A stretch of DNA of 63,416 nt from a bacterium (GTDB taxonomy: Bacteria; Elusimicrobiota; Elusimicrobia; Elusimicrobiales; UBA9959): positions 1 through 63,416 of the forward strand of contig JAJZRA010000005.1 of NCBI GenBank assembly GCA_021847485.1, given 5' to 3'. This document shows positions 1,943 through 37,795 of this stretch, in pieces. The notes below the pieces were generated by a model, which was given only the letters and a program-made list of their open reading frames with translations, had not been told where the DNA came from and did no database searches. How positions within the stretch are numbered: the first letter of the stretch is position 1; every line of letters starts with the position of its first letter. The translations under genes were made by a program, and so were the position numbers.

Positions 1943-2018
1943 TCGGCAGCCTGACCCCCGCTCACATAGCGGGTCTTAGCTTTGCGCCGCCGGCTTTGGC
2001 CGGCTTTGCTATTATCGT
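1943..2018 (-). promoter_or_regulatory. GEMM-I class cyclic-dinucleotide riboswitch upstream of the PorV-like gene
   Basis: On the minus strand the GEMM landmarks appear in order: GATAATAGCAAAG, a 6-bp GCCGGC stem with a CAAA loop, the GGCGCAAAGC core, a GACCCGCU/AGCGGGGGUC stem with a 2-nt bulge, and GGCTGCC. The core is identical to the aptamer at 37553-37628, while the variable stem differs in sequence but keeps its pairing. By my alignment to Vc2, position 14 is G, 18 is A, 20 is A, 47 is A and 92 is C. A at position 20 is the variant associated with 3',3'-cGAMP recognition; G would mean c-di-GMP. The usual GNRA tetraloop is replaced by CAAA. The expression platform to the ATG at 1874 is unclear: ACGAT just after the aptamer can pair with ATCGT near the start, and a weak GCAAT/ATTGC hairpin with four Ts lies between. 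Confidence 0.85.
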
Positions 2019-2062
2019 AACAAGACCGCGTTACAAACACGTTACAGATTTACGGCATTAAT

Positions 2063-2090
2063 ATTATAGCAGATGGAACGGCTTTGTCAA
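2063..2090 (-). promoter_or_regulatory. Sigma70-type promoter of the PorV-like gene
   Basis: The minus strand has TTGACA (2085-2090), a 16-nt spacer ending in TCTGC, and TATAAT (2063-2068). The TGC before the -10 makes it an extended -10 promoter. Transcription would start near 2056, about 40 nt before the aptamer. Confidence 0.85.
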
Positions 2091-2101
2091 GGGGGACACC
2101 A

Positions 2102-2113
2102 TTGACACGTCAA
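2102..2113. promoter_or_regulatory. Putative operator TTGACACGTCAA
   Basis: A near-perfect 12-bp palindrome centred upstream of the promoter, separated from the -35 hexamer by 11 nt (2091-2101). The giant gene has a perfect version (TTGACGCGTCAA) at exactly the same distance. That shared geometry suggests a transcription-factor site. A degenerate extra -35 box is the simpler alternative, because TTGAC is also the -35 core. Confidence 0.5.
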
Positions 2114-2123
2114 GGCCTTTTCA

Positions 2124-2136
2124 CCCCCCCCCCCCC
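2124..2136. repeat. Homopolymer tract of 13 C (G on the coding strand)
   Basis: Thirteen consecutive C residues lie 8 nt past the stop codon of the giant gene, between it and the next promoter's operator. Tracts of this length slip easily in replication and in sequencing. It is outside both coding regions, so a length change would not alter either protein. Confidence 0.95.
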
Positions 2137-2144
2137 TGGAGGGC

Positions 2145-5100
2145 TTAGTGAATGACGCCCACCTTGCGCATCACGACCTTGCTGCCCTTGGGGCTGGAAG
2201 CCTTGACGCGCACTATATAGCCGCCCTTGGAGACGTAGCCGCCCAGGCCGTTCTTGCCGTCCCAGATCACGAAGTTCGGGCCCAGCTGGCCGCCCGGGGT
2301 CCCGCTGGTGAACTTGAACTCGCGGACCACGTAGCCCAGCAGGTCGTAGATCGTGATCGTGACCTCGGCGTTATCGTTCAAGGTATAGTTAATGACGGTA
2401 CGGCCTTCCACGCCGCCCTTGCGCAGGTCCACCGGGTTCGGATAGTTGGAGACCTTGCCGAGCAGCTCGGTGCCGATCTGGGTGCCGGCGGGCGTGGAGA
2501 CCTGCGACCACTCGGAATGCAGGCCGGCGAAGTTCCAGCTGCGGACGCGGTAGGTGTAGTACTTGCCGAGCGGCCGCGGCGACTCGCCGGGGTTGACCGG
2601 GTCGCCTATCGTGTAGATGTTGTTGATGGCGCCGCCGGTCTTGAAGCCGGGGATCGTGGCCACGGTCCTCCAGATCGGGTTGGTGCCCTCGCGCTCCTGG
2701 ATCTCGTAGGAGGCCACGTTGGACTCGGCGTCGGAGGACGCGTCCCACTTGAGCGTGTAGGCCTGGCCCGAGGAGACGCCCTTGGCCACCTGCGGCTCGG
2801 GCGCGCCTGGGGTGGTCGGGTAGGTGGTGTCGATGCGGTAGACCATCACCGGCACGCCGTTGACGCTGGGCACGTAGGTGCCGTCGGCCATCTGGCCGCG
2901 CACGCTCAGGATATAGCCGCGGTCGGAGACGGTCTCGCCCCACGCCGTGTGCGGCCCGCGGAAGGAGCCCTGCACGCCGCGCTGGTTTATCTTGAACGTG
3001 ACGCCGTCGAGCTTGGTGACGACCATCATCTCGTTGCCGACGTAGACCACGCCCTCGGCCGCGAAGCCGTCGGTGGAAAGCACCGTGAAGGAGGAGGTCT
3101 CCACCTCTATGCGGCTGGCCAGCTTGGTGAAGTGGCCGGGCGACAGGGCGACGTTGGTCACCTTGCCGGAGAGCTTGTCCCCCGCCGGCTGCCAGCCGTT
3201 CTTGATGCCGGTCGGGTCGGAGAAGCTGCCGCCCAGCGAGAGTTCGTAGAGGGCCACCGCGCCCGAGGCCGGGTTCCACCAGCCGGGCAGCTCGGTCGTG
3301 TTGGGCGACCAGCCGTTGGGGACGGCGCCCAGCTCGGAGACGGCCAGCTCCATCTTCACGTTCTGCACGTTGTCGCCCACGAAGTAGAGCGGCTTGCCGG
3401 TGCCGTCGTCGACGATGCGGTCCGGCACGTAGTCCAGGTTCTCGTCGAAGTCCAGCAGCCGGTCGCCGTCCAGGTCGTAGCTGGGCAGGCCGGAATTGTT
3501 CAGGCTGACGTCGTTGCACTTGCCGGCCTGGTAATAGTCGAAGTTGTCCGGCACGCCGTCGCCGTTGATGTCGATCTGCGGCTCGTCGGCGCGGCAGCCG
3601 TTGGCGGTGTAGTTGTAGATCCAGCGGCTCGGGTCGGCGATCGGCAGGTTGTTGGAGCCCAGCACGACGTTGCCGCTGGAGTCGCTCAGCGCGTAGGCGG
3701 GATAGCCGTTGGAGGCCAGCATGATGTGCTTGTAGACCGGCGTCAGCGGGATGATGGCCGGCGAGATCAGGATCTCGTTGGAGCTCATCGGGTAGTTGTC
3801 CAGGTAATACTGTCCGGCCGCCAGCTGCATGCCGGCCACGCCGCGCAGGTCCGAGAACGCGGCCAGGCTCAGGCCGGCCTGGTGGCCCATCGTGTCGGCG
3901 CCTGACATATCGGTAGCAGAACTGATGTCGCAGGCCATGTGGATGATGGTGGTCGCGGTGGAGATCACGAGGTAAGGCAGGTTGCCGTCCGTGATGTCCA
4001 CGGCGAAGCCGTCCTTGAACGGGGTGGTGGAGGAATGGGCGGTATAGCCTATGCGCTGGTCCGAGATCGGGCTGAAGGCGCCGTCCCCGTCGTCCTTCCA
4101 CAGCGAAACGCTGGTCAGGTCGCCGTCGCCGAGGTTGACCGTGGTGCTGCTGATAGTGCCGGTCTGGTGCAGGAAGACCTGGCCCAGCGCGACGTAGTCG
4201 GAGAGGGTCTTCATGTAGAAGGTCATGACCGGGACGTTACGCGTCCCCTTCTCCGCCGACTTCGGCGAAATGTCCACGGAATTGATGCTCAGGCTGATGG
4301 CCCTGATCGGCACCAGGCTGGAGCTGAACGGGTAGATCTGCGTGCCGGTGCCCTTCGGCAGGGCCTTCGTGATGCCCACGTACAGGCTGCTGGAGACGTC
4401 GTGCGGCGAGTTCACCACGACCCACGACTTGTCGCGGATCATCATGCCCACCTTGTTGGCCTTGATCGCCATTTCGCCCATGTCGTAGACCGCGAAGTAG
4501 GTCTGCGGCAGCGGCGACAGCGTCTGGTACTGCGACAGGTCTATATAGGTCTGCGTGTTGAGCGGGTTCTCCTGGTCGAACAGGTCCACCTTGCGCACGG
4601 AGGCGCGGGCGGGGTGGTTGACGACCGGCGTGTAGAAGTCGCCCAGCTTCTCGCCCCTCGAGAAGACGTGCAGGAACGGTTTGCCGCTGGCGGGGTCTAT
4701 GCCGGTGCCGGAATAAGAGGCGAGCTCCGCCTCGGAGATATAGATGCGGCCGGCGGCCGGGAAGCCGGCCGTCGAGTTGACGACCAGGTCCATAGGCAGC
4801 GTATCGGTGGACATGAACGGCATCATCGTCAGCGCGTTCGCCTCGGAGATGTTGACGTCGTTGACGTCGAGCACGTCGTTCTGGTTCGAGTCCTGGTAGA
4901 TCTTGATGAACTTGACGTCGGTGTTCTTGCCGAAAGGCGCGTTCGGGTCGTTGGAGGCGCCGGTGCGCTGCACCTTGAAGGCGCTCCAGCGGGCGTTGCC
5001 GGCCTCGGTCGCCAGGTTGAAGCGGATCATGGGCGCGTTGAGCTGGGCCTGGTTGACGCCGCCGGACAGCACGAGGTCGGTGGCGACGTCGTTGGCGCCG

Positions 5101-32100: not shown

Positions 32101-35100
32101 CCGGAAAGGGCCGTGAACGTGGAGGCCTGCCAGTTCCAGTACTCGTTGGCGCTCTGGCGCTTGACGCGGAAATAGGTGCGCTGCAGCGCGCCCGGGGGAG
32201 TGTCGGACACGGAGCCTTCCAACTGCGGCACGGCGTTCATGTAGGCCTGGGCCGGGTAGGAAATGGCCACGGCCGGGGCGCTGGAGTCTATTATGAACTC
32301 GGCGCTGGACGGGGAACCCTCGGGCACGGCGCCCAGCCAGGCCTTGGAGTAGACCCGGTATTTGCGGTTGCCGTTCCAGCCGGCTGACGGCATCGTGAAC
32401 TGCCAGGCGGAACCGTCGAAGCTCTGCACGCCGATGAACAGGTTCGGGTTGGCCGCCGCCGACACCCACGCCGCGCCGTCCCAGACCAGGTTGTCCGCCG
32501 TGGCCAGCTCGTCGAGGTCGGGGCCATAGTCAACTATGCGCACCTGCACGGTACTGGAGAACACCGCCGTGCCGACTATGGGCTGGCTGGGCAGCGGCTT
32601 CCAGTGAGGCACCGTGGAATCGGGCGAAATTATTACGCTGGAAGGCAGCGGCGTATGGAGCCTGAACTGCACCAAGGGGCTGTTGTAGGCCGGCGAACCG
32701 GGCTTGACCACCTCGTTGCCGGCCTTGTCCACGGCCTTGGCGAAGATCTGGTAATCGATACCGGGATCGGAGGTGATCCACGTCGGGGTGGAGGCGCCGG
32801 TGGCCTGCCATTTCCTGTTGGGGGCGTCCACGCTCGTGGCCTCGTAGAAAAGCTCCGAGGCGGAAGACCAGTTGTTGGCCGCCATGTTCCAGTAGCCCGA
32901 CGGCGCCGTGACCTTGTAATAGGACAGCAGCACCTTGTCCACCGAGCCGGGCGCCACGTCGGAGGCCGAGCCGGAGATGACGGTCAGGTCGGTAGTCAGG
33001 TCGTCGCCGTTGTTGGGGTAGGTGACGCTGGAAGAGGGGAGCGTAAAGTCGGCGGCGACGTTCAGGGCCGTGGAGTACAGCACGGTCCAGTTGCCGGCCC
33101 TATCCTGCGCCTTGGCGTCCACGTCGTAGAACACGCCGGTGGTCCACGGGGAGGCGTTGAGCTGCCACCAGGTGCCGTTGGGACTGAGCGTGCCGTAGAG
33201 CGTGACGTCGTTCCAGACCTCGGGGGCGCCGGTATTCGTCCAGTTGGAGATGGAGCTGTTCCAGTACCAGTTGTCCGAATTGCGCTTTATGCGCACGTAG
33301 ACCTTGGCCGGGCGGCCGGGCCACAGGTCCGCCGCCGTGCCGGCCGGCTTGCCGGCCGCGGAAACGTAGCCGTTGGTGATAGGGTAGGTCACCGTGACCG
33401 TCGGCCTGTCCAGGTCGTAGACGAAGCTGGCCGTGGACCAGACCTGCTCGTAGTTGCCGGCCTTGTCCTTGGCCCGGGAGACGATCTCGTAGCGGCGGCC
33501 GGGCTTCCAGAAATTAGTCTGCGGCGTGCCCGACTGCGGGGTGTTCCAGTACCAGCCGCCGCCGTTGGTATCGAAACTTCCGCCGTCGCTGGCCGAGGCG
33601 TCCGGCCAATTGGCGGTGTTGGCGTTGGGGTCCGCGGCTTCCCAGTCCTGCGTGGCGCGGTTCCAGTAATACGTCGTGTTCTCTCCCAGCGAAGGGGTCG
33701 GGTAGCGCAGGACCTTCAACTTGACGCCGGTGACGATATTGCGGACGTTGTCGTCGTAGGTGCCGCTGCTGGAGAGGAACTGGTAATTATAGTGCGTATC
33801 GTCGGCCGGCACGGTCACGTCGGAGTTGGGCTTCTCGGGCAGGGCCTGGTAGACGTCGTAGACGAAGTTCACCGTCGAGAGCGCCACCTCCTCGTTGTCG
33901 GCCAGGTCCACGGCCTTGCTGACCACGCGGTAGGCTATGCTGTTGCCCCAGGCCGGCGAGGCGAAAGTCCAGGTGCCGGAGCTGGTCCCCACGAAGCTGG
34001 CGGGATACCAGTAAGTGTCCCCCAGCTGCTCGCCGGCGGCCCAGAGGGACGGGTCGGGGTTGCCGTTGTAGGTCCTGCCGTTGACCGAGTCGTAGATATT
34101 GAGCCTCACCGAAGAGATGCCGGGCACATAGTAAACCGCCGGGTCGCGGTCGTCGGCCGTGCCCGCGATGACCGGCAGGCTGTTGACCTGGTCGCCGTCC
34201 GCCAGGCTGGTAAGTTTGGAGGAGGGCTTCTCGGGGTCGTAGACCAGCGTGACGCTGTTGAGCCCCACGCCGTTCTTCTCGATATTGCCGGCGGCGTCCA
34301 CGGCCTTGATCGTCAGGGCGAAGGTGCCGCCGTCGCTCCAGACGCAGACCCCGGAAGAGCCGGTGGACCAGTCAACGTCGTAGGTGTTGAACTCCCAGCC
34401 GCCGGCCACGATGGAGGCGTTGTTCTCCAGCGTGCTGTCCCGCTCCCAGTTGCCGGTGGCGGCGTTCCAGTAGCAGCCGAAGCCGGGGCTGTCCACCTTC
34501 CCGATCTTCAGCTTGACCGACGCCACGCCGCCGTAGGGGGTGGCGGGCCAGTCGTCGGCCGCGCCGTTGACGAGGGTTATGTTGTGGAAATAGGTACGGG
34601 AGAGGAACGGCACCGGCACGCCGTCCTCGTAGGCGTTCACCAGCGTGGACGTGGGCCAGGAGACGTCGTACTTGAAGCGGCGCTCGTTGACGCCGTTGGT
34701 CCACGAGGCCTCCAGGTTGCCCACCGAGTCCACGGCCCGCGACCGCAGCCGGTAGTCCTTGCCCTGCTGCAGGTTTATGCCGGCCGGCAGGGTATAGGCC
34801 CAGTCGGCCGGGATGAAATCCGCGGGGTTGGACAGGCGCGCGTAGGTGCTGAAAGAGGTGCTGTAGGCCTTCCAGGAGGAGCCGTTCCAGACGCTGACGG
34901 GGTCGTAGGGGGCGATGGGCGACAATTCGGCCAGCTCCAGGTCCAGGTACTTCACGTTGGTGATGCCCGGCGCGTCCTTGGCCGTGCCGGTGATCTGGGG
35001 GAAGGCCTTCATGAAAGCCGCGGCCGGCACGGAGATATAGGAATCGGGCGGCAGGTTATCGCAGGTGAAGGTGTTGGACGCCGTGCCGGCCGCGAAGACG

Positions 35101-37313
35101 CTCTGGTAGTTGCCAGGGGAGGAGGAGTCCTTCGCCCTGGAGACCAGCAGGTACTGGTGGTTGGGCGTAAGCGAAAGGGCGGCGTTGTAGTAGGTCCAGG
35201 AGCTGGCCCAGACCTGCGCGTCCGGCCAGTCGTCGGCGGTAGGCGGCGGCACCGTCTGCCAGCCGGTGCCCCAGTACCACTGGGTCGGCACGGCGGTCTG
35301 GTCCATCAGCAGGATCTCCACCTTGCCGCCGGTAACGGGGCCGATGCCGGAATCCTTGTCGTAATAGCCGCCCGAGAACGTAGGGTTGGTGCCGACGTAA
35401 TCGTACTGGGCGGGATAGGTTATGGCGGAGGTGGGCACGTCCACGTCCCATTTGAAGACGCGTTCGGCGGTCCACGCCTGCTGGTTGTCCGCTATGTCCT
35501 TGATCCGGCACGAGACCGCGTAGCTGGAACCGGACACACCCCAGTCCACCAGGGAGGCGTCATAGGACCAGTTGATGACGGAGCCGGCGTTATTGGTGAC
35601 GTTGATGGTGGTATCCGGGCCCCAGGACCCGCCGGTCCAGTACTGGTTGCCGGCGCCGGAGAGTTTGCGTATCTTGACCTGCTGGGCGTTGGCGACGAAG
35701 CCTGACCCCGCCAGCGAGTCGGTGGCCGTGCCGGTTATCGTGGTCATGACGCCGTACCAGGGCTTGATCCCGTCGGGCTGGGTAGGGGCCGACAGCGGCA
35801 GCGAGTTGTCGAACTTGAACACGGTGTTGCCGCCCATCGGGACGGTCAGGTCGGAATTATCCTTGGCGGAGACCCTTATGGTGTAGCTCAGGTTGGAGCC
35901 GAAAGTGGCCCAGTTGGGCGCTATATACCACCAGGCCGTGGCCTGCGGGCTCAGCGTGGCCGTCAGCGGGTATTCGGTAGAGCTGTTGAAGCCGGAGCCG
36001 TCCCAGTACCAGCCGGAAGTGTTCTTTATACTTATGGAGACGCTCTTGATGCCGCTGTTGAAGCCGTTGGCGTTCACCGGGTCGTCGGCGGTGCCTTGTA
36101 TCTGGGGCAGCGCCTTGGTGCTGTCGTTATAGGCGTCCCCGTTGGCGGGCAGCGATACTCCGGCGGTAGGGGCTATCTGGTCCACGTTGAAGATCATGGA
36201 CGGGTCGTAATAGTTATAGCTTGTCCACGCCCCGCCGCCGGTCCTGTACTGGGTCTTGCCGTTAGTCCCTTCCCAGGAGTAGTCCTGGTAGGGTGTGGCG
36301 TTGGTCGTGTATTGGTTGTTGAGGTTGAAGTAGTTGCTGCTGGTATTGGACCCGCCCGGGGACCAGAAATAGATCTGGTAGGTCTTTCCGTTGACCAGCC
36401 TTACGGCGGTAGGATTATCGTTCAGGTCGCGGATCTGCTTCTCGAACCAGGTCAGCGTGGTGGAAAGCATCGTGCCGTTGATGAACGTGCCGGTGGTCAC
36501 TATGACGCTGTCGGTCTGGTTATAGAAGCAGTAGTTGAGGTCCCCGGTGGGGGTGCCGGTCTTGGAGAGGGCCGCGCCTATGGAGTTGATCACCTTGTCG
36601 CCGCCGGTTACCGTCAGCAGCATGCCCGCCACGCGGGACAGCGTGTCGCCGTCGGCCGGCAGGCCTGTGCCGCCGCCGTAGCCTATGGTGTAATTGGCCT
36701 GGCCGTAATAGACGTTGCCGAGGAACTTGCCGCTGGCGAAATCCAGCATGAAGACCGGGGTATTGGTGCCCTGGATGGCCCAGGTGGCGCCGCTGTCGAG
36801 CGACTGCAGCACCGCGCGGTTGGTATCGTCCACCTGGTTGATGGGGTCGTACTCCTGGTAGGGCGTGCCGTACAGCAGACGCGAGGAGTAGGCGGTATTC
36901 TTCACTATTATAACCATGTGGTAGACGGAAGCGTTGCCCAGGTACGCGTCCGGCAGCGTACCCACCTTCCAGCCGGAGCCGGTGCCTATGGCCAGGGTAT
37001 TCGAGGTTATGTAAACGCCCGAGGGGTCGCCCGAGGCGTCTTCCTGTATGCCGGCGTCCACGTTGGGGAGGTCTTTACCTCCGTCGACATTGTAGATCCT
37101 GACGCCGGTGACCGTGTCGTTGAACGGCATCGTGAAGCGGTAGGAGAACCGCTTCGTGGGCGTGTTCATCGCGTTCTGCGTCTGGTTGGTCTGCCAGTAA
37201 TTGTTGCCGTAATAATAATCCGCGCGCGCGTAGACCGAGGAGAGGAGCAGCACGGCGGCCGCAAAAAGCGCCCGGCGGGTATTCTTTCCGAATACCCGCT
37301 CCAGCGCTTTCAT
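2145..37313 (-). CDS. Giant multidomain exported adhesin/fibre-like protein (~11,722 aa)
   Basis: One uninterrupted frame. I place the start at ATG 37313, where a signal peptide begins (MKALERVFGKNTRRALF ... SVYARA). In-frame starts at 37334 (ATG) and 37352 (TTG) only add residues ahead of it, and none has a strong Shine-Dalgarno. Approximate layout: 1-31 signal; 32-375 beta-rich N-terminal region; 375-7225 about 53 Ig-like domains, each opening with a P-x-S-x-I-x-x-P strand and holding ISGTA.D, YWNG..W and RA.D.AGN motifs; 7225-9430 about 17 repeats with LLPGE and D.Y.N motifs; 9430-11195 about 8 modules with D.N.DG.L loops; ~11250-11310 DINGDGVPDNFD-type calcium loops; ~11500-11610 fn3-like; 11624-end a FlgD/T9SS-type domain (NYPNPVD ... 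VIWDGKNGLGG). No catalytic domain was recognised. Adhesion, predation or matrix roles are all possible. A dedicated promoter, riboswitch and terminator precede it. Confidence 0.93.
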   Translation of the reverse strand: MKALERVFGKNTRRALFAAAVLLLSSVYARADYYYGNNYWQTNQTQNAMNTPTKRFSYRFTMPFNDTVTGVRIYNVDGGKDLPNVDAGIQEDASGDPSGVYITSNTLAIGTGSGWKVGTLPDAYLGNASVYHMVIIVKNTAYSSRLLYGTPYQEYDPINQVDDTNRAVLQSLDSGATWAIQGTNTPVFMLDFASGKFLGNVYYGQANYTIGYGGGTGLPADGDTLSRVAGMLLTVTGGDKVINSIGAALSKTGTPTGDLNYCFYNQTDSVIVTTGTFINGTMLSTTLTWFEKQIRDLNDNPTAVRLVNGKTYQIYFWSPGGSNTSSNYFNLNNQYTTNATPYQDYSWEGTNGKTQYRTGGGAWTSYNYYDPSMIFNVDQIAPTAGVSLPANGDAYNDSTKALPQIQGTADDPVNANGFNSGIKSVSISIKNTSGWYWDGSGFNSSTEYPLTATLSPQATAWWYIAPNWATFGSNLSYTIRVSAKDNSDLTVPMGGNTVFKFDNSLPLSAPTQPDGIKPWYGVMTTITGTATDSLAGSGFVANAQQVKIRKLSGAGNQYWTGGSWGPDTTINVTNNAGSVINWSYDASLVDWGVSGSSYAVSCRIKDIADNQQAWTAERVFKWDVDVPTSAITYPAQYDYVGTNPTFSGGYYDKDSGIGPVTGGKVEILLMDQTAVPTQWYWGTGWQTVPPPTADDWPDAQVWASSWTYYNAALSLTPNHQYLLVSRAKDSSSPGNYQSVFAAGTASNTFTCDNLPPDSYISVPAAAFMKAFPQITGTAKDAPGITNVKYLDLELAELSPIAPYDPVSVWNGSSWKAYSTSFSTYARLSNPADFIPADWAYTLPAGINLQQGKDYRLRSRAVDSVGNLEASWTNGVNERRFKYDVSWPTSTLVNAYEDGVPVPFLSRTYFHNITLVNGAADDWPATPYGGVASVKLKIGKVDSPGFGCYWNAATGNWERDSTLENNASIVAGGWEFNTYDVDWSTGSSGVCVWSDGGTFALTIKAVDAAGNIEKNGVGLNSVTLVYDPEKPSSKLTSLADGDQVNSLPVIAGTADDRDPAVYYVPGISSVRLNIYDSVNGRTYNGNPDPSLWAAGEQLGDTYWYPASFVGTSSGTWTFASPAWGNSIAYRVVSKAVDLADNEEVALSTVNFVYDVYQALPEKPNSDVTVPADDTHYNYQFLSSSGTYDDNVRNIVTGVKLKVLRYPTPSLGENTTYYWNRATQDWEAADPNANTANWPDASASDGGSFDTNGGGWYWNTPQSGTPQTNFWKPGRRYEIVSRAKDKAGNYEQVWSTASFVYDLDRPTVTVTYPITNGYVSAAGKPAGTAADLWPGRPAKVYVRIKRNSDNWYWNSSISNWTNTGAPEVWNDVTLYGTLSPNGTWWQLNASPWTTGVFYDVDAKAQDRAGNWTVLYSTALNVAADFTLPSSSVTYPNNGDDLTTDLTVISGSASDVAPGSVDKVLLSYYKVTAPSGYWNMAANNWSSASELFYEATSVDAPNRKWQATGASTPTWITSDPGIDYQIFAKAVDKAGNEVVKPGSPAYNSPLVQFRLHTPLPSSVIISPDSTVPHWKPLPSQPIVGTAVFSSTVQVRIVDYGPDLDELATADNLVWDGAAWVSAAANPNLFIGVQSFDGSAWQFTMPSAGWNGNRKYRVYSKAWLGAVPEGSPSSAEFIIDSSAPAVAISYPAQAYMNAVPQLEGSVSDTPPGALQRTYFRVKRQSANEYWNWQASTFTALSGGYTDLPAAVAAGLASYTTDYFSAGQAWEPDRTYVVQLFSTDKAGNTGAATEATFTLDASSPAARILVPYDANGAGIRYLPALSGTAYDNYKNSRVQVAIRKLASTPVWFDGAGFTDTNDPAHWLEVNGASGYLSPDATSWTYVPAGLDNVFAEDYRYLILARAVDVAQNTQQTFVVGQSSMVVKIDKSAPSPKTVNPLDDSDGVSGRYQPGMIGKTANSTQLKGTAVDSPANVNSGVSAVSIRLSYLSGTVTYYWDGGAFSSAVSSETAWQTASVSGSGPVWNWNYMTDIAWPAGDREYLLETKAMDDARLSDDSGAGNWNSWPYPSTRFIVDGTPPAVAITTPSVLALNSLTRIDGTADAALAGHKLTYVRLSTTGVDGTRYWDKAGGVWTSNAETWNPATTLGPTSWYCLVDPVVLKDDVVYTMSARALDYAGNYSAVYSTQTFTYDITPPAVSIGFPLDGAAYSQIKVSTPIAGASSQPGQLSAYTGVSTAAVKITDVDGGNVCFTGSGWAACPVWLPAGGPPGAWNYTGAALSFVNDHSYQVEARATDFAGNDSPPALVTIRYDVEKPTSTLTYPLPGLTTGFTYISGTADDERYGSRQWEAKLSSYTVKVAVKRLTAPAGWWDGAAGDFTSGLAKWYEAVNSTTTTPNKFRYDLPAAMISKLTDPANQNVSYWVVPWSYDLALNREFGPQAGDPLEADIPPGVGRLVTFDNEPPRSYVTMPALQYYNSIPTISGTSGDNVGIAETRITLFNTTLNKYYSRSFTPLPWSAPGANENDAPWIPVQETVYQSSSAWSYTVQDSSWTSGAWYSIRARARDVSGNYDNVYTTATFLFDNQAPVSTVTVPSDGANLNYQPAQLQGTSYDPGSSGVDHIYLYVSRASDGWYWNGTGGWDPTPQLLSAAAPFGSWTWAISANMFQNNDGEIFRVQTNAGDRATNEEGYGLKASFVYDVSRPTAAISYPYDNGYISASGKVAGGSYDKPNGKVADVNVRIKQLAGPNAGKYWSVAGSSWAAAALANSVVSYGTLSPAATWWQLNTSPWATGEIYEMNAWAVDKAGNYQLDYSTATNIKADFTNPSSTITYPTNGALIQAELNSVQGQASDVPPGVLDKVLLSYYKTDIGRYWNFATHAWDSASELFYEAGISGNNWTATGASTPTWIAPLAGATYRIFAKAVDQAGNEVPKPGLPGPLSPYIEFTLKPPPPVSAIVIPDGTVPHFKPAPAPAVIGTAVYATTVAVRVVDYGPDLTENAGGDDLAWNGAAWAPASVFTGFTGVDTYAAPNWQWSIPTAKWNGNRRYRVISQASHEINGTIESPGVGVEFIVDSSAPAAGVTMPDKVYMRSLTSLAGTVSDTAPGEVTSAYFRVKRQGLAEYWNWQASTFTAAGTYTDLPASLAWNDVLKTGTVNYSTSVFTAGLAFEPDRSYVVELYATDKAGNMGSASAFTFTMDVSSPVARILVPYDADKKGVRQVDRIAGTAADNFGNSDVYVALQQQGDPPLWFNGTDFLTPGVSPVWISMKADGTLLPSATSWTYAPAGLDLRFTAGTTGLKYLLLSKAVDVAGNAQDVLPVDVSSVVINVDKMPPSSAFTLPADDQDGFSGRYRSANIGRTASGTRFYGASADNAYSENNAGVYSGDLRLSYVAGGTTYYWQPSAFTSAISSDTAWQPVSVSYVGPNWSWIYLNDISWPAGDREYKAEIRAMDDARLADGSGPGNLEDPQTRGANVRYFLIDDTPPTVAITTPAVPAVRELPGFGGTVNADIAGLNRVEVMISTGVDAATRYWNGTGWQTAAWPALYAAKLGPASWYYTLPPAALRDDAAYTLVARAVDYAGNVSAVYSTFTVTYDVTGPLVSLAYPVDGATYSQILLSTPLAGTASNNQTAPYSGPSTVTVAISDLAGSCFDGTSFTACSQSVWLPAQGTVANWTYNNGNLAFISDHSYKFEARSADDAGNYSGVAAVTTKFDLDIPTSTITSPMTEFVNALPLVTGTASDERFGPRTYEAGLGTYTVKVAIRLVGGNWWNGSTAFDSANPKWYEAAVDTAAYGAGQATVDWQYAVPANMQGVISGLSGSSPYLRSYLIVPWAYDLAQNREFGPGGSDPASADVPAAVGRILKFDNMKPVSVATSPANGSYQSSAPYLYGVATDTGVITGVQVLVKARGTFNAILKYPPYTNTVADWTDSGGYVYWSTAAYANGAWSLQLPSLDPVNNNKISVWTRSRDQAGNWENSPTPAQIDANLNADGSPAYYFTYDNMLPVTGVTYPDRYALNVATSQISGTAFDAGTEPSGVSEVRLRIRRSDGAYWSFINNNWTSAMPGDTFGVNGTNNWTKAIDAASQEDGYQYDIYHYAVDNAHNNQSGAYFSTFTFTVDLTTPTSKITFPAHNSFIGSVPAITGTADDSVENLHSWAAPRNYEAGVSTDTGVELAIQRLTDNKWWDGTGFGAASRQWHLAAFTGASSGTWVYNIPAGAIADGTTYYAMSRVRDLVGNLQTAYTTNYFTGDTTPPDSRAIDVLPVHSGDPSQITAIIGTAQDTLPGELRNSDMVRIALRKTDLPTACYDNANNNWVNCPTGSYPNDRLWFSTGTVNDPRGQPGNWTWDTSGITWANGSYYDVQALAIDKAGNVRCQATPATCPGANSPDLSFKFVSPAAAVFITIPADEMGNYRSSSLGAVLGNGTNLRPLNSVQIRVKRQKEPAAWWSEGSGAWLSYDTYTYVNASAGSWSMGVSGASAFTVDNATYTFAVTGYNSANEASVPTNRNVIVDNTVPLGAVLSPGYLYVNAMPDISGTAYDPGRAALPAAYQEGMSRVLVMVKDNTMGTYWNGLTFDTFMSSSNILAAGTLNWSTATAVTPYMKDGRSYTVFAKPEDKAGNRDDNELTAPSFTVIYDTTTPDSAITAPAPFSILRSLTAIAGTAADPNGTYAPSLKSDLDRVELQIFDEASNRWWHSGISAFSVLSSSFNAVTGTSNWSYSNAALAPSLQSGKYYVLNARAVDRAGNDQAGFKTNVSSLTFIWDTTPPQTFLEQPLDGASYKPSGLTGVNPLRGTASDAPLPYSTDHLKKVQMNLLYLEDGTSYYWTGTTFSSWTLTFDGAWSDVIGTSTWRYPFDGVTGGFGNWVSDRDYILRVRAFDTALPQDANGGNEQNPWTVARFVVDGTPPVSRVSTPTANSFIQGTLPEIDGTSYGGRSGLLPFPNGLKLRISYVSGADTYYWGGTAAVGWLMNVQTDLPVEYTASQSTVTWKYPPATYEPPTITANNRVYTISIAGTDNAGNAEAPAAVTVTSDFNYPALTISTPMAGASAFYGPSRPTGLLTGNSADSPAGILPPIKTQLSNISEPGAVKPKWDGSAWTVTPSTWLAVSGLSPWTFSPPGWPANKRYKAELWAVDYAGNQVPADTYTREFIYDVNAPSSTILSPSAPFHNAAQVQTFSGLAADWLVNPSTEAMSGLAPDGVEVQILDPSGNTFNGAGFASGSYWRKAVFSTTTFVNDGIFGLDLVTAANWSYPRSPDAWPPTLVEGSTYTVRVRAYDRALNLENYVEKSFCYDVYAPTVAVTMPGSFAYVSMPVISGTLSEKVSYPDPVSGVQLVIQRVSDLNYWNGTGWDAVFSAAAHWRNATTIGPASWSLADPNLNTEFNSLKASNASLQFRLFVRAKDAAGNQSRPGAAAPANPDVEFTVDPVVPVSRVTYPAAGAYVNAPVSHLDGTASDSSLGVPSGLNSVRLRLSKLNSASTRYYYNWSLNTWTTDPAAWIFTPVDAALTPWTRSIPSSAFSGSGTDNGDGYSFEVQPEAKDNTQPVNGGPNTEVLYATSTFLVDLSTPAAFIAQPPHNSYFRAVSSLSGTAQDPVAGGGIPSGMASIEYLLVDTDRKPNRYWDFQNGAWQAAYVSSVTAPAANWTVTSLPVNNPPSAANSWAVGRSSATFLLQVKITDNALNVSSFTVNYSTFTLDLILPDSQVTSPPLENGPQLVVSSITGTAADFTSGISTVQVRIQQDMTQTDCLDTSNNGMYWNGTAWQSGEKWLGVDSYNPAGGAWNLDSSAVVFRAQCYYVVKSSAVDNVNNGEATWGTRRFKFTPPPASTRINVPDNLKFYKALAQVSGTANSDAKTLALQVQRLSDNYYWNFGTQAWQLALSSATGIVPSGGAWTYGTNLPPLVSGSSYTFRSIGKSYSDVDEAAPATNQVYFDTDKPVASVLLPSPAKLYYNSLPVLGGLTSDPPGTTPPAAGIYRVWAELQDVNGPNSGNYWDNATSTFTAVWDQAGNQGSYFLAGSSWTYTVSYPTAAYTNGVQYRARAKSLDNTYNNAALEGTESDFSAQVLFNYDTVVPTAVVTAVAPGQSRSSVGVASGTLQEELVLANIGQQPGAQIAGVKVRLRDNKLVQYWDGSGWSSNPAVWADAAVYQSSWSLAALPIWADDGSYTLWAEASDKAGNVQTLFSGNGSSVTFTVDKTAPSLAVLAPAANTKISSVLSVYGTANDPNYATNSGIAGPGNVQVQVSYLDAGVTYYYDGAATFTSGLNDLTSWQPANYWTPQGPSSGTWTYQPAGLSAAMVPDKTYRFRARAQDNAVPVPNPASLLANAVTNGSVVYDVTPPVSRVTAPADKARVRTLTVITGTSLDNLAGISTLDQIGVSISEKGGAGWNGLYPGTFTLTSETFQPLSAPSLSASYDGLHWSFNAPDLRDGYTYVVKVRASDDVTPPNTETAVSSVTFTYDTTPPAAAITYPYALPDVRANLKALASVSGTAYEQFGIQSASVSVQEADTLLYYDPQVSTFSSPTQKWIGAAIAGASPNYTWTAAAPPLTDNKNYNLQVTANDAAGNVLAPPSPTVIRYDVTPPLSGPATPPNNGFINSLPAITGTAADVNSNPSGVAGSQVKIQRNTDGLYWNGSTWGSPEAWLAPVAGASWTKAAQLPPSDNFAGLHDGVAYTVQTRAYDVAANTQSVYMAGNIFTFDISSPTAYVTQPLNGSRFNALPLVTGTAADAFNVNFPLIRVYDIPLNKYWLDSGVCNGQPKTRIWVGPGDLCAGYPEIWNVALDSSSAAGSFGWRYDASAVAWPDRDNELQIEAKVADQAGNYTFASSTFSYDATPPLSAILYPPTNGVLYSSMTAISGTSLDLTSAVSDVRIRIWYLSGGSTYYWQPTTPHWSPSDTGWWSIGGAPGPKATYNPWSYTNSDFTNPGTVNFAWKEGTHDGQNGKVFYVVTKAVDATTNEQVSLTTRTFQFDNVPPLSAPVQPGIDTAYKNLPVLSGTSVDAVTTVGSVKVSVLSQDEPGGPKYFNGSTGFANTAETWLSVSNLYPSSWTYSSGMLTFADKRHYIVKSSATDSIGNVQNIVGQSRFLYDTTEPQSVVVSPVNASVYNDNKVLLGNASDPGFTSGIDGTGSGVYPDQPWHAGKVEALVFRDTEPYLSSNGPIIYGAWDSSGYFWNGSTWTAASAGPVWNQGQFTDSLGNWQYSGLVCVSTSEPCWVRGDPYAAWVRVTDNSGNTEAIIDQGPKFYIAAPAQSFLITVSADPMTSGSDVNITVEAKDGPSGSGNTAAAYQGTVNFYVDGVPGGPEVMDNDAVMDDYHGLPQQYTFLPGDFGKKTFQMRLRKAGGRVLRTEDKDNPAIFGTKNVTANPTTPDRVQVIADYDPAGQLPMPGRMDAGVEGSTGTPRTKPAGSNIPFLLQVTDRYWNLVVSSAASVYITDTDNNNDPISPDGYVNFVGSTTIYRTFVSASVSGWGVSASGQGLYTNPRNPSSNVPVVAQTADRLLVKLPGETLVEGKFAVQPYGKKDSPSDAVAGSTLTVTVYGVDPYYNVDKTASFQVSADVNTDPYDITPPAQNLVSGATNFAFVPVVASTHVIRAQSSSLPPATSVYYTPNPVRVWWNRPVKLHLIAAGQSLDPGKPPYTSDPSGGGKAGSPSPLQAGNTTWMSVYLTDDYYNVVRGTTPFLAVSSNAPVIQVDFLNDPNIQLRGMHPSPYQKSLVAGTTNFPVIPVTRNQSPGLSVRVTDTGLTYTAFSTDTVSGIVVNPAQAASMLLLVPNEVAAEGVPGGKTGTAGPLTAGTTYTLTVRAVDAYGNLTTDGRMVRVVSNDIYAVHPPAQPMAGGIALINGFVPSAATNNLVIDALDDDTVVPKLSTSTDAGVTVVPGAPSHLIVLLPTQYLVPGKVTPPYGAAGAISTQTAGVYFNAQVYAADSRYNRVYGVNKTNMRAATDDLNVNGGLLGFFDMADGSATISNISLRSAGFRTITAADLSGTSPNLGATQSGTFVLNPSNPTKLRAMVPSETRVPGSVSNGRTGAVDGQQAGFPFAVTVDITDAFWNLTPGTSQEIRLVCDDPFSIVSPSTQVIVGSATFTVTPKRAGFTYVRAELVNAIPPWGPSLNVDTATVVSVAPGIPKRMLLLMPGESFDQGSPTGKIGAVGPQKAGTDFGVRVGVVDDFFNLCPGRPADVRVSAPSDPYAPAVSTAAVNTAVGYTDLMYANLHKAATHYLTATDYGSSGLSDDPQSSTFTVRPADPVGLQILLPGETAVPGSGNYPYGGKSSVVSTQTAGTPFNVTVNLVDPYMNRYQDLSAGPTVYIVSMDDPYDMDVSSSALNYGTLQVQMNLVTRKSVSAIKVYPVIAADNNVCFGNFGGACRGDDAAAKASLKVFSSTATRIEVVLPGQALAEGKCNISPPCRDPLISWPGRTGPPNAHTIGTGALFANVYVTDKFYNKATELTGAAQDTNPAAVMPNVAISLPGDLKISPPSPQTLSNGGAVFAIDARTSFSTYTVVAATTASSAADYATGVSTLAVNPGPPTHMIFVLPSTTVVAGFPFSATLKVRDIYENDCSTGPNVYLGTAAFAVVDQINPNQDPSLASPNTAFGASDLGVKDLVSWFTFRKAGVNTLGAYDTLSPGVNVSPLVNVMVLPGPPNIYRVVPNDDLEVPAGSILLPGRQAMTAQLSDAFDNNISSAGVPAYIQVAEVYGSTGTLQYQSASAWLDMGVSTVVYTDSTGQIGLSTPVAYGVSSRAGDWARVWIGTTPAPSNTAPIYATYLSARQNISGRMTTTGGTPSKLLFISSQPAATVGIQEVAGSGALFTVERRDDFDNLTKQGQTDVYLGIPSAQISIHTALGRNLGTFGTFGDYGFRTTLNDQFIPAASILPNQTNVSFRYHDRTSSYSGLSPDQNTAEGGRPGYWQIEARSGSMQPAIHQLRVNPIDIAKVSFGNARRTLVAGKTIDSFGVNQDFKAELRDMFDNPSLATAAVQVYLSTDTRQPSAINDSFSFSVSTALSGAFPPVFASTLSYITIPLDGYSATFYYLDTAASTIYGSTTPLRPIIKLSVPDRPAWAASTQAVHVLPDFTYRINVSSNAGQTFMAGTTSQMFLMSIEDKYGNPTPVAGGQEDAIGAGVSFTMDSDSPGQVKFAAPDVSSWTARPGSAKMALGESATSFYMTDTKLSEPSHQLTINTVMPKGWLPAISSYVIVAAPPDHAAFYTAPRRLVAGTTVQYADYVSNITTVSVVSVVLKDRFENTTTTSSVATVRFTAVRNTMYGGIDPNEDVLSSNPAWKLLKTNPLDLSIFPGQSYANVYVWDTIVGTSTIKAETTIPSDGITLPAITQDEYITPSTAAYFTLHHAYSLTNPLRVQTPGNVTLRVRDRFGNVCTGDAVNGMYYTGKINMATNSKGSADLRDWLNNTTDYTFVPADHGERQLLVQDTFVETLKLNVTDYYRADIYGYTGDSARGMPVPSNADVILSGLVISPADLAPEDPLPVAKASLGINKYAIYQGDGVIPDVPAPVPMLRLTMQTSPAGAPPAYLKSVQLKSSGTLSWSDIVEVAMYADNPTYGQVGAFDGETSLGGTPIDIFMSSGTYDTGLMAWTFDDLATKVSTAALVSNTPRNFFFAVRMSTVAATPRSFALVMDNPSFVVLNSTFVGVAYNNFPIATATSPVRNQPATVQIKGQDIGAWWQPTVGTTTLTLGQYDYVEQGQGRVGFLAVKAWTDNFVGTIKSFKIIKTGTGSGADLKSVRLFMDSSGGDPELGDGIFEPSIDKEVTDPLNPPGYDVNDPDTFVLPLINPGLDGAVSISTRTYFVVYEFGPDSVPNMTHGARMENSGVNLIDGVVGAFQPIVSSTIPLRATADVVYLVDVNKSQPNNFATPSFVTQNDKDKAVARLTLQINGSQGSAVWSGLKLDRWITGAENGGTPLWNKVTDVKKISIWHDSTGDGLLETSGTVKDTEVLMIGMQDRTFPYDSLKAPLTSTDTVLRVYDIQRFFPADSPFPQAPGRLVVNDAQADPSLKEVVYYSTVDVLNNSFGGLTRGAEGTMVGDWSTGTVVSGQAVLPIIGDGGALDGQIIYNSPKDYFITYDIDPLANVSNFSYLGLAIRATDYFMIAPPKIMSTANIGVTPPGKSVSLIGKVREYPDQVIFTASDTFTGPSLQQQAVNQPVLTFNAETNVADAMWRWLMVYATGTVIQDGTAIGDVSAVKVWYDKDNNGFLGANDVMIGSGTFGNTIYGPLTARVDFSAEQRLITPLEAANNAVSQRYFLTYDIRASAMPNDALGNPRYLGAYLKPDSLPQNSPTVDDALKNAISLPNYFSQENSNLTFVSKLRDIISSPSTITVLTEPVFSPGGSGSQVSMRLTQDVVSPGPQDAAWLVTSTAGIPSAGYAMVDNEIVHYDSTGPGALLTVTRGAFNSPIVNHSSGSVVGGEIYQGWGNYPLAQMTLATEGYGVRWQGVKLSRKQPSSLNGYDSDTALIKIWKDNGNGVFDRDAATGLNTSDTIIGTGRFGTGTDAVGKATILVKDPALNDQNYVVIRSTPTKIFITVDIDKASNFSNVLLNPQNDVLGVEVPFETNFIFGPENSGHVAQFLSPTLSQMNVLLPTMNNVTMTPEDISPVTVTQNDKNVGVLAMRFVTDKTSAKVEAIRVDRRGSSNDSDIDLLKVWTDSNDNCILDSVDTSSDAAGLYPNLMSYGNESFSSSTVNIVLKKPIVVTTTPLCAFISYDMSQFAIIGSTAALSISSAGYFTIGIPNTITLSTWPISTMPMVVKEIPSNVVLGANDVATDLVLSGGVNQAQLNAPMIRFNLATEAGNARWSAFKVQRTGASNDPNAPFGKNTDVKFIKIYQDSNQNDVLDVNDVNISEANALTMMPFMSTDTLPMDLVVNSTAGFPAAGRIYISEAELASYSGTGIDPASGKPFLHVFSRGEKLGDFYTPVVNHPARASVRKVDLFDQENPLNTQTYIDLSQYQTLSPLPQTYFAVYDMGEMAIKANKVGMMIRDKSWVVVNSPHDVSSSLYVGITKALPKGTGTQIYPFSSSLVPIRAISLSINSVDISPKSAEKGTRNVPVMTFYMKTLSDYVALGQVFLHQTGTISSTTVNLGDGDLTSVSLWKDDGDGAFSPISDQRIGYTAHSSTTPFKDGFAVDITDGNLPYLVISTATTIIHMACDISSATDMSGADTMGHQAGLSLAAFSDLRGVAGMQLAAGQYYLDNYPMSSNEILISPAIIPLTPVYKHIMLASNGYPAYALSDSSGNVVLGSNNLPIADPSRWIYNYTANGCRADEPQIDINGDGVPDNFDYYQAGKCNDVSLNNSGLPSYDLDGDRLLDFDENLDYVPDRIVDDGTGKPLYFVGDNVQNVKMELAVSELGAVPNGWSPNTTELPGWWNPASGAVALYELSLGGSFSDPTGIKNGWQPAGDKLSGKVTNVALSPGHFTKLASRIEVETSSFTVLSTDGFAAEGVVYVGNEMMVVTKLDGVTFKINQRGVQGSFRGPHTAWGETVSDRGYILSVRGQMADGTYVPSVNGVPVMVYRIDTTYPTTPGAPEPQVAKGVSSGQAYTLKWDASSDAESNVASYEIQEREGTNPIWRTVATIPGFKTGGAINNIYTIGDPVNPGESPRPLGKYYTYRVRSWNFAGLHSEWSQVSTPAGTQIGTELLGKVSNYPNPVDLRKGGVEGRTVINYTLNDNAEVTITIYDLLGYVVREFKFTSGTPGGQLGPNFVIWDGKNGLGGYVSKGGYIVRVKASSPKGSKVVMRKVGVIH
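3720..9015 (-). repeat. About 8 modules with Asp-rich calcium-type loops in the giant protein
   Basis: Units of roughly 170-230 aa combine a beta core (LTLATEGYGVRWQGVKL type) with a loop such as VWYDKDNNGFLGANDV, IWKDNGNGVFDRDA or IYQDSNQNDVLDVNDV. These resemble EF-hand or dockerin loops and are expected to bind calcium. A separate ~70-aa insert recurs inside some of them (TSTAGIPSAGYAMVDNEIV, NSTAGFPAAGRIYISEAEL). Confidence 0.6.
9015..15640 (-). repeat. About 17 'LLPGE' beta-repeats of ~130 aa in the giant protein
   Basis: Each unit carries a strand such as LQILLPGETAVPG or IEVVLPGQALAEG, then a short Gly-rich link, then TAGT.F.V.V...D.Y.N (for example TAGTTYTLTVRAVDAYGN). This resembles bacterial Ig/invasin-like folds, but I do not recognise the exact family. 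The units become less regular toward the C-terminal side. Confidence 0.7.
16460..20670 (-). repeat. Super-repeat D: 11 Ig-like domains, more diverged
   Basis: The order is preserved: a PPAST-type third domain, a sixth domain with SYLDAGVTYYY at about 18635 (4.27 kb from block C), then a PPVSRVTAP seventh domain. Two extra Ig-like domains follow (about 15640-16460) before the fold changes to the LLPGE repeats. The boundaries are by eye. Confidence 0.6.
20671..24985 (-). repeat. Super-repeat C: 11 Ig-like domains, more diverged
   Basis: The eleven domains open TPTSKITFP, PPDSRAIDVLP, SPAAAVFITIP, VPLGAVLSP, TPDSAITAP, PPQTFLEQP, PPVSRVSTP, YPALTISTP, APSSTILSP, APTVAVTMP and VPVSRVTYP. The sixth-domain landmark (LYLEDGTSYYW) is at about 22905, 4.27 kb from that of block B. 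Confidence 0.65.
24986..29232 (-). repeat. Super-repeat B: 11 Ig-like domains
   Basis: Colinear with block A domain by domain, and the most similar pair by eye. Matching landmarks are DKVLLSYYK, VVDYGPDL, EYWNWQASTFTA, ARILVPYDA, SYVAGGTTYYW, WPAGDREY and YDLAQNREFGP. The SYV..TYYW landmark lies at about 27172 against 31363 in block A, a 4.19-kb period. Confidence 0.8.
29233..33405 (-). repeat. Super-repeat A: 11 Ig-like domains (~1,391 aa)
   Basis: Within the giant gene. The block opens with RPTVTVTYP and its eleven domains open in turn RPTVTVTYP, LPSSSVTYP, LPSSVIISP, APAVAISYP, SPAARILVP, APSPKTVNP, PPAVAITTP, PPAVSIGFP, KPTSTLTYP, PPRSYVTMP and APVSTVTVP. Domain-specific quirks (VVDYGPDL in the third, SYLSGTVTYYW in the sixth, YDLALNREFGP in the ninth) recur at the same places in block B. 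The seven domains upstream (33405 to about 36190) look like a partial unit. Confidence 0.8.
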
Positions 37314-37474
37314 GGTCCCGGCCGGCTTTATCATCGTTCTATAAAAAGGCAAAGGACGGCCCCGCAGGAATATTTCTTCCAGCAGGGTCGTTCAGTGCCA
37401 TCCTATTATAATAAATAATTATTGTTTCGCAAATGTTGCAGGCCCGCGAAATACCCGGCGCGCGCGCGGACGAC

Positions 37475-37506
37475 AAAAAAGCCGCCACGGCGCGAGCCGG
37501 GACGGC
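37475..37506 (-). terminator. Intrinsic terminator in the giant gene's leader
   Basis: On the minus strand GCCGTCCCGGC, a TCGC loop and GCCGTGGCGGC form an 11-bp stem with one mismatch, followed by six T residues. It lies about 45 nt past the aptamer and about 160 nt before the start codon, where a riboswitch-controlled attenuator would be. No gene ends here, so it is not an ordinary gene-end terminator. Confidence 0.8.
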
Positions 37507-37552
37507 CACATAGAAAGGACAAACGCGGGAAAACCGCTTTTCCATATCGTCT

Positions 37553-37628
37553 TCGGCAGCCTGACGCCCGGGCACTTACCGGGTCACAGCTTTGCGCCGC
37601 CGGCTTTGGCCGGCTTTGCTATTATCGG
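37553..37628 (-). promoter_or_regulatory. GEMM-I class cyclic-dinucleotide riboswitch of the giant gene
   Basis: The conserved core is the same as in the aptamer at 1943-2018 (GATAATAGCAAAG, GCCGGC-CAAA-GCCGGC, GGCGCAAAGC, GGCTGCC). The third stem has a different but still paired sequence (GACCCGG/CCCGGGCGUC). The base I align to Vc2 position 20 is A (37620), the cGAMP-type state. Together with the downstream terminator at 37475-37506 this is a complete transcription-control riboswitch. Whether ligand turns the gene on or off cannot be told from the sequence. Confidence 0.87.
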
Positions 37629-37642
37629 ATCAGGAACTGACA

Positions 37643-37767: not shown

Positions 37768-37795
37768 ATTATAGCAGATAAAAGTTGTTTGTCAA
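37768..37795 (-). promoter_or_regulatory. Sigma70-type promoter of the giant gene
   Basis: TTGACA (37790-37795), a 16-nt spacer ending TCTGC, and TATAAT (37768-37773) on the minus strand. The hexamers, spacer length and extended -10 are identical to those of the PorV-like gene's promoter. The start site would be near 37761, giving a leader of about 450 nt. Confidence 0.9.

Follow-up and report, generated by a model that had tools for sequence, protein, structure and literature searches.

The window analysed here, a stretch of 63,416 nt of contig JAJZRA010000005.1 (GCA_021847485.1), comes from an Elusimicrobiota bacterium of the UBA9959 lineage, whose genome comprises 2.2 Mb in 122 contigs and is 83% complete. 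A cmscan of the whole window gave exactly two matches at or above the gathering score (35 for RF01051 in Rfam), both to RF01051 (c-di-GMP-I, GEMM-I) and both on the minus strand, which also carries the genes, leader elements and promoter-like sites of the window described below. Aptamer 1 (1942–2020; 56.7 bits, E 2e-8) precedes a gene of the PorV/PorQ family, and aptamer 2 (37552–37630; 55.7 bits, E 3.5e-8) is located upstream of a giant gene; the model is matched end to end in both cases. An earlier reading made from the sequence only had placed GEMM riboswitches at these two sites, with coordinates that proved correct within 2 nt (the strand was unstated), and its description of the RNAs was borne out: the junctions and P2 are the same in both copies, P3 differs in sequence with its pairing retained, and the GNRA loop of P2 is replaced by CAAA in each. 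Elsewhere in the family of the window genome (f1; 59 genomes searched, 48 with a match, all 107 aptamers read) the P2 loop is GAAA, TAAA, TTAA, GCAA, among others. The CUAA/AuG columns of the model, which we take to be the tetraloop receptor, are gapped in both window copies, so that neither the GNRA loop nor its receptor is present; this pair of elements varies within the GEMM-I class and is hence not decisive for membership. In an RNAalifold consensus derived from the very alignment on which it was tested, the P2 and P3 pairs are standard in nearly all of the 76 distinct short-type family aptamers, with several pair types per position. The claim that such aptamers precede only these two genes holds within the window; the genome, however, carries a third aptamer with A20 (G000:C66:17500-17589), in front of an ORF that appears kelch-like by eye (locus L003). 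Downstream of this third aptamer, within positions 1300–1600 of the locus (minus strand), lies a second copy of its 3' end, GGCUGCCGAA, which could serve as 5' arm in a terminator (11 of 40 shuffles were equally strong); a 9-nt perfect complement to a stretch inside the third aptamer also occurs downstream of it.

Upstream of each window aptamer there is a promoter-like TTGACA-16-TATAAT (2063–2090 for aptamer 1, 37768–37795 for aptamer 2), a perfect sigma-70-type site (12/12) in both instances, compared with the 0.2–0.3 sites of at least 9/12 per region that shuffled sequences yield. The PorV-family gene (321–1937) starts with an ATG 4 nt after aptamer 1 and encodes a protein with C-terminal TPRs, which belongs to the PorV/PorQ family by its NF033709 score (103.9 bits, cut-off 90) and scores under the cut-offs of the PorV, PorQ and PorV2 equivalogs. 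The giant ORF (2145–37334) comprises about 11,730 codons, counted from its ATG (37334), and carries bacterial Ig-like domains; its C-terminus gives a T9SS-tail-like/FlgD-Ig-like match under the cut-off (TIGR04183, 18.6 vs 23 bits). SprA-like matches were obtained in 21/21 genomes, all under the curated cut-off. Between aptamer 2 and the giant gene lies a leader ORF of 68 aa (37339–37545), whose ATG follows the aptamer by 6 nt and whose stop is separated from the giant ATG by 4 nt. Downstream of the giant gene, 13 consecutive C (2124–2136) lie between its stop codon and the promoter that precedes aptamer 1. Immediately upstream of the aptamer 2 promoter there is a 584-codon ORF on the same strand (37822–39576).

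The order aptamer, giant gene, aptamer, PorV gene is conserved among relatives. Wherever a contig of the family holds a second short aptamer besides the one at PorV (18/18 contigs), this second aptamer is found 34–60 kb upstream on the same strand. In each of six such contigs that were read through, the gap is largely taken up by a single ORF, of 11,806 to 16,135 residues between stops. A seventh region shows a truncated ORF in front of the PorV aptamer, ending in the same C-terminus; the 19.5 kb read of an eighth (G156) contain no giant ORF. In some relatives two short aptamers, spaced by about 1 to 9 kb, occur upstream of the giant-gene region (G150:C303 7480-8609; G128:C1 144452-153351; G143:C42 35-2803).

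The early part of the PorV ORF contains a terminator-like stem, with its 5' arm at 1890–1911 (ORF nt 26–47) and its 3' arm plus U-tract at 1841–1864. The stem sits within the first ~36 codons, and its 3' arm adjoins the U-tract, which encodes Phe, Leu and Ile of the signal peptide. The consensus scan also lists a short stem at 1865–1849 in this leader. Throughout the family the PorV frame can be read from an ATG that follows the aptamer by 3–7 nt (37/37 leaders, nine genera), and the 5' arm begins at ORF nt 26–32 in 34/37, the exceptions being G133, G156 and G111. By eye, the arms vary in sequence among genera and retain their complementarity. In a long-range arm test that was designed once the leader alignment had been inspected, and was therefore not blind, at most 5% of 200 synonymous-codon shuffles matched the native pairing in 29 of the 37 leaders; the eight that failed (G112, G130, G133, G135, G136, G145, G148 and G156) count against the model favoured below. 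A terminator test limited to short stems was discarded, only 7/37 leaders reaching the 5% level or better. In predicted folds of the 37 leaders the aptamer and terminator helices are compatible, with a mean terminator pairing of 0.71 (0.54 in the window leader); values below 0.3 in six leaders again speak against that model. An antiterminator pairing of the aptamer with a stem arm was not conserved in the 37 folds (mean 0.37, uneven).

Outside the family, where "PorV" denotes a tblastn match to the window protein (36–63% identical, orthology not implied), an ORF of 80 codons or more begins no further than 12 nt from the aptamer in 31 of 38 PorV-linked leaders among the matches listed, a count for which the reading frame was not checked leader by leader. 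Two PorV-linked leaders of family f9 (L137, L138) follow the same plan by eye. In the relatives L142 (G175:C43) and L139 (G168:C171) the 3' strand of the aptamer itself appears, by eye, to take part in the terminator, for instance CCAGACUGCC paired with GGCAGUCUGG next to a U-tract; since this is the ON arrangement of the pilM type, the phylum may contain both ON and OFF switches.

The leader of the giant gene is less uniform. A terminator-like hairpin with a U-tract is visible within the leader ORF (37475–37507; predicted −17.4 kcal/mol). The consensus scan does not list it, and in the arm test 5 of 40 shuffles equalled the best stem, which is another one than the visible hairpin. For the same leader type in relatives, 0 to 21 of 40 shuffles were as good, a further point against the favoured model. 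Other leaders of the genus possess a different, stronger terminator. A promoter-like TTGCGA-16-TATAAT (10/12; 37405–37432) lies between the hairpin and the giant ATG; as it comes after the hairpin, it could act as a bypass promoter, and the giant gene may also be transcribed independently of the switch. Similar TATTATAAT blocks are recognizable by eye in relatives. Seven leaders of the genus have a short leader ORF (up to 77 aa), the stop of which is separated by −17 to +4 nt from the nearest long-ORF ATG, the gap being measured to whichever ATG among those of long ORFs is closest to the stop, and the long ORF being the giant gene by coordinates only in the window, G126 and G128. Among the 14 leader ORFs examined, five extend to 300–328 aa and two outside the genus have no adjoining long ORF, which counts against the favoured model. 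The five (G137, G139, G133, G145:C79 and G147) had been considered as fusions with the giant gene and were excluded, as their ORFs stop at 300–328 aa. A codon-position test of leader codons, for leaders chosen by a YYN motif (n=14, not a frequency), gave no third-position excess; conservation of the frame is the stronger argument for translation.

The special feature of both window aptamers is an adenine at position 20, as the sequence-only reading had rightly observed. The G-C of J1/2 is preceded by U and A in both copies, compared with a and G in the model, and Vc2 position 20 is therefore A. The numbering, and the retention of G14, A18, A47 and C92 in both copies, presumably hold, the alignment to Vc2 having been made by eye. 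In the family A20 was found in 96 of the 107 aptamers and G20 in 11; the window's own genus has A20 in 62/63, and the PorV-linked aptamers in 37/37. Counted by genome, 39 have A only, two G only and seven both (G112, G116, G111, G126, G113, G107 and G114). Beyond the family 78 aptamers were read among the matches listed; since best scores come first against a G20 consensus, A20 may be under-sampled there. Among these matches, 35 of 38 PorV-linked aptamers have G20, the three with A20 all belonging to family f13, and A20 precedes other genes in 12 of the remaining 40. From both counts it follows that the pairing of riboswitch and PorV gene has G20 in most of the families sampled and A20 in two.

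The rule by which G20 would denote c-di-GMP and A20 3',3'-cGAMP was also part of the earlier reading. According to PMC6456294, it holds in Geobacter, where A20 goes with cGAMP and the exchange A20G switches the RNA to c-di-GMP; A20 is typical of cGAMP-selective GEMM-Ib aptamers, with about 1200-fold selectivity in one Geobacter case. It is reportedly no strict rule: PMC9262584 describes position 20 as a selectivity factor and not a hard filter, and cites cGAMP riboswitches reported to bind c-di-GMP via a protonated adenine. Among natural enzymes, those with Ser/Thr are reported to have GGDE[F/Y] without exception, and Asp/GGEEF mutants of GacA to turn into diguanylate cyclases (PMC6456294; the GEMM-Ib points also draw on PMC8835794 and PMC6274999). 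The Hypr-type GGDEF that the earlier reading expected (Ser/Thr at the Asp site, GGDE[F/Y]) was not encountered alongside the A20 of the two aptamers. All three GGDEF domains in the window's own 83%-complete genome have Asp, as do 64/64 matches above 100 bits in 21 relatives (92–100% complete), where 122 matches were obtained in total and four of the 58 weaker ones, also Asp, were read. The same residue is present in 60/60 domains at 30 tandem-pair loci, 58 of them with GGEEF. A further eight genomes, of which seven have an A20 aptamer, gave 58 matches; the 28 domains read there all have Asp as well, and L335 and L341 yielded no readable motif.

The tandem pair of Asp/GGEEF cyclases tends to accompany the aptamers: among the 59 genomes 44 have both, four the aptamer only, three the pair only and eight neither (Fisher p 3e-5, uncorrected for shared descent). 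Genomes with aptamers only are that of the window (83% complete), G140 (79%), G117 (60%) and G147 (95%); the absence of the pair from the window genome, at its 83% completeness, counts against the favoured model. PilZ was found in 55/59 family genomes, including the window's own. SMODS CD-NTases (PF18144) were considered as a source of cGAMP and set aside as sporadic (6/59 family genomes). With Hypr GGDEFs missing from those read, SMODS enzymes so scattered and position 20 no hard filter, specific control of the giant protein by cGAMP, as originally proposed, is unsupported. Circumstantially, the genomic evidence, together with G20 in 35 of the 38 PorV-linked aptamers read beyond the family, favours c-di-GMP over cGAMP as ligand, and cGAMP is somewhat disfavoured. 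A20 is nearly fixed in the family; a sensor of c-di-GMP alone should have no need of it, and this burdens the favoured model.

As far as can be judged from sequence, the GEMM-I aptamers, with their A20 and in a gene order conserved among relatives, sit where they could control both the giant gene and the one of the PorV family. Tentatively, and with somewhat less than even confidence, we favour control of translation start by a cyclic dinucleotide, likelier c-di-GMP, coupled to transcription termination in the OFF direction. Each aptamer would be transcribed from its own strong promoter and be folded by the ligand, more probably c-di-GMP than cGAMP. Because the 3' end of the aptamer is only 4–6 nt before the first ATG, bound ligand would hinder ribosome entry. 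The blocked start would be the PorV gene's own ATG in one case and, in the other, that of the leader ORF whose stop abuts the start codon of the giant gene. With the first ~36 codons free of ribosomes, the encoded terminator hairpin would form and transcription would stop, a role that the weaker hairpin of the giant leader may share. Without ligand, translation would start and hold the hairpin open, so that both proteins, the giant one with its Ig-like domains and the PorV-type partner, would be made. Ligand-blocked initiation with termination of the uncovered RNA is the simplest reading, as the start codon follows 4–6 nt behind the aptamer.

Other explanations concern either the ligand or the expression platform, and the two kinds are not mutually exclusive. 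That both RNAs are cGAMP-selective GEMM-Ib switches, through which cGAMP controls the giant protein and PorV, would agree with A20 in both copies and in most family aptamers, with the behaviour of the Geobacter RNAs (PMC6456294), and with the seven genomes that hold A20 and G20 aptamers side by side, which would fit two signals. Given Asp in every GGDEF motif read, the rarity of SMODS CD-NTases and the reported tolerance at position 20 (PMC9262584), we regard it as rather unlikely. A bolder version seems improbable. In it, the tandem Asp/GGEEF cyclases and not Hypr enzymes would produce 3',3'-cGAMP as the signal for the family aptamers; position 20 of the PorV-linked RNAs would have changed back and forth between G (c-di-GMP) and A (cGAMP) in separate Elusimicrobiota families, with gene partner and architecture unchanged; and the RNA would act via the terminator in the signal-peptide codons.

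As to the platform, the aptamer might simply block the adjoining start codon in a purely translational switch, with the hairpin and U-tract as by-products of U-rich signal-peptide codons. The GC-rich families f14 and f15 suit this explanation: the start codon is 1–7 nt after the aptamer in 24/25 of their PorV-linked leaders among the matches listed, and 3 of 10 leaders scanned lack a qualifying stem plus U-tract. In the window's family, however, the stem surpasses its synonymous shuffles in 29/37 leaders and keeps its position in 34/37, and we judge this explanation unlikely. A conventional transcriptional switch with an antiterminator, for which the position of the start codon would be incidental, finds a foothold in the second leader type of the genus, where the aptamer tail CCGAAGA is complementary, by eye, to UCUUCGG in the 5' arm of the strong terminator. 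The PorV leaders, on the other hand, have no conserved aptamer-to-arm pairing, and the start codon adjoins the aptamer in 37/37, such that an antiterminator is distinctly unlikely to be the general solution.

The architecture is more interesting than first described. With the riboswitch-PorV pair bearing A20 in two families and G20 in others sampled, and only canonical GGDEFs among those read, the phylum constitutes a natural experiment, and its aptamers could tell whether the rule equating A20 with cGAMP is readable from sequence beyond Geobacter. A terminator-like stem inside signal-peptide codons, behind a start codon that adjoins the aptamer, is an expression-platform design of interest in itself; in the titles and abstract openings listed for riboswitches with intragenic or signal-peptide-codon terminators, such a design is not described, nor is such a system reported in those listed for Elusimicrobiota with riboswitches, cGAMP or c-di-GMP. 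In this uncultured lineage, the locus would also link a second messenger to a bacterial protein of very large size and to the partner that probably serves its secretion.

Among known systems, the PorV/PorQ proteins of type IX secretion resemble the window protein in the NF033709 score over its cut-off and in the company of SprA-like matches in 21/21 genomes, below cut-off; the window protein differs by its TPRs and by scores below the PorV, PorQ and PorV2 equivalog cut-offs. The RNAs share with the GEMM-I riboswitches Vc2 and Cd1 (RF01051) the end-to-end model match and the pairing of P2 and P3, and the ligand-contact residues of Vc2 other than position 20 are presumably kept, as judged by eye. 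In contrast to Vc2 and Cd1, they have A20, missing receptor columns, an ATG 4–6 nt downstream and a terminator-like stem in the coding frame. In the OFF switch Cd1 the aptamer and terminator helices coexist, which is not so in the ON switch pilM (PMC9262584); the PorV leaders are predicted to fold in the Cd1-like manner, allowing both helices together, and unlike pilM their terminator stem uses no aptamer strand. With the Geobacter GEMM-Ib cGAMP riboswitches (pgcA, pilM) A20 is held in common; here, by contrast, a Hypr GGDEF was not found among the domains read, and the adjoining genes encode PorV and a giant protein with Ig-like domains. Bc2 of Bacillus thuringiensis (PMC4933901), a c-di-GMP riboswitch on the collagen adhesion gene cap, is comparable in having a surface adhesion protein as its target; it differs in the phylum of its host and in being described as part of the 5'-UTR.
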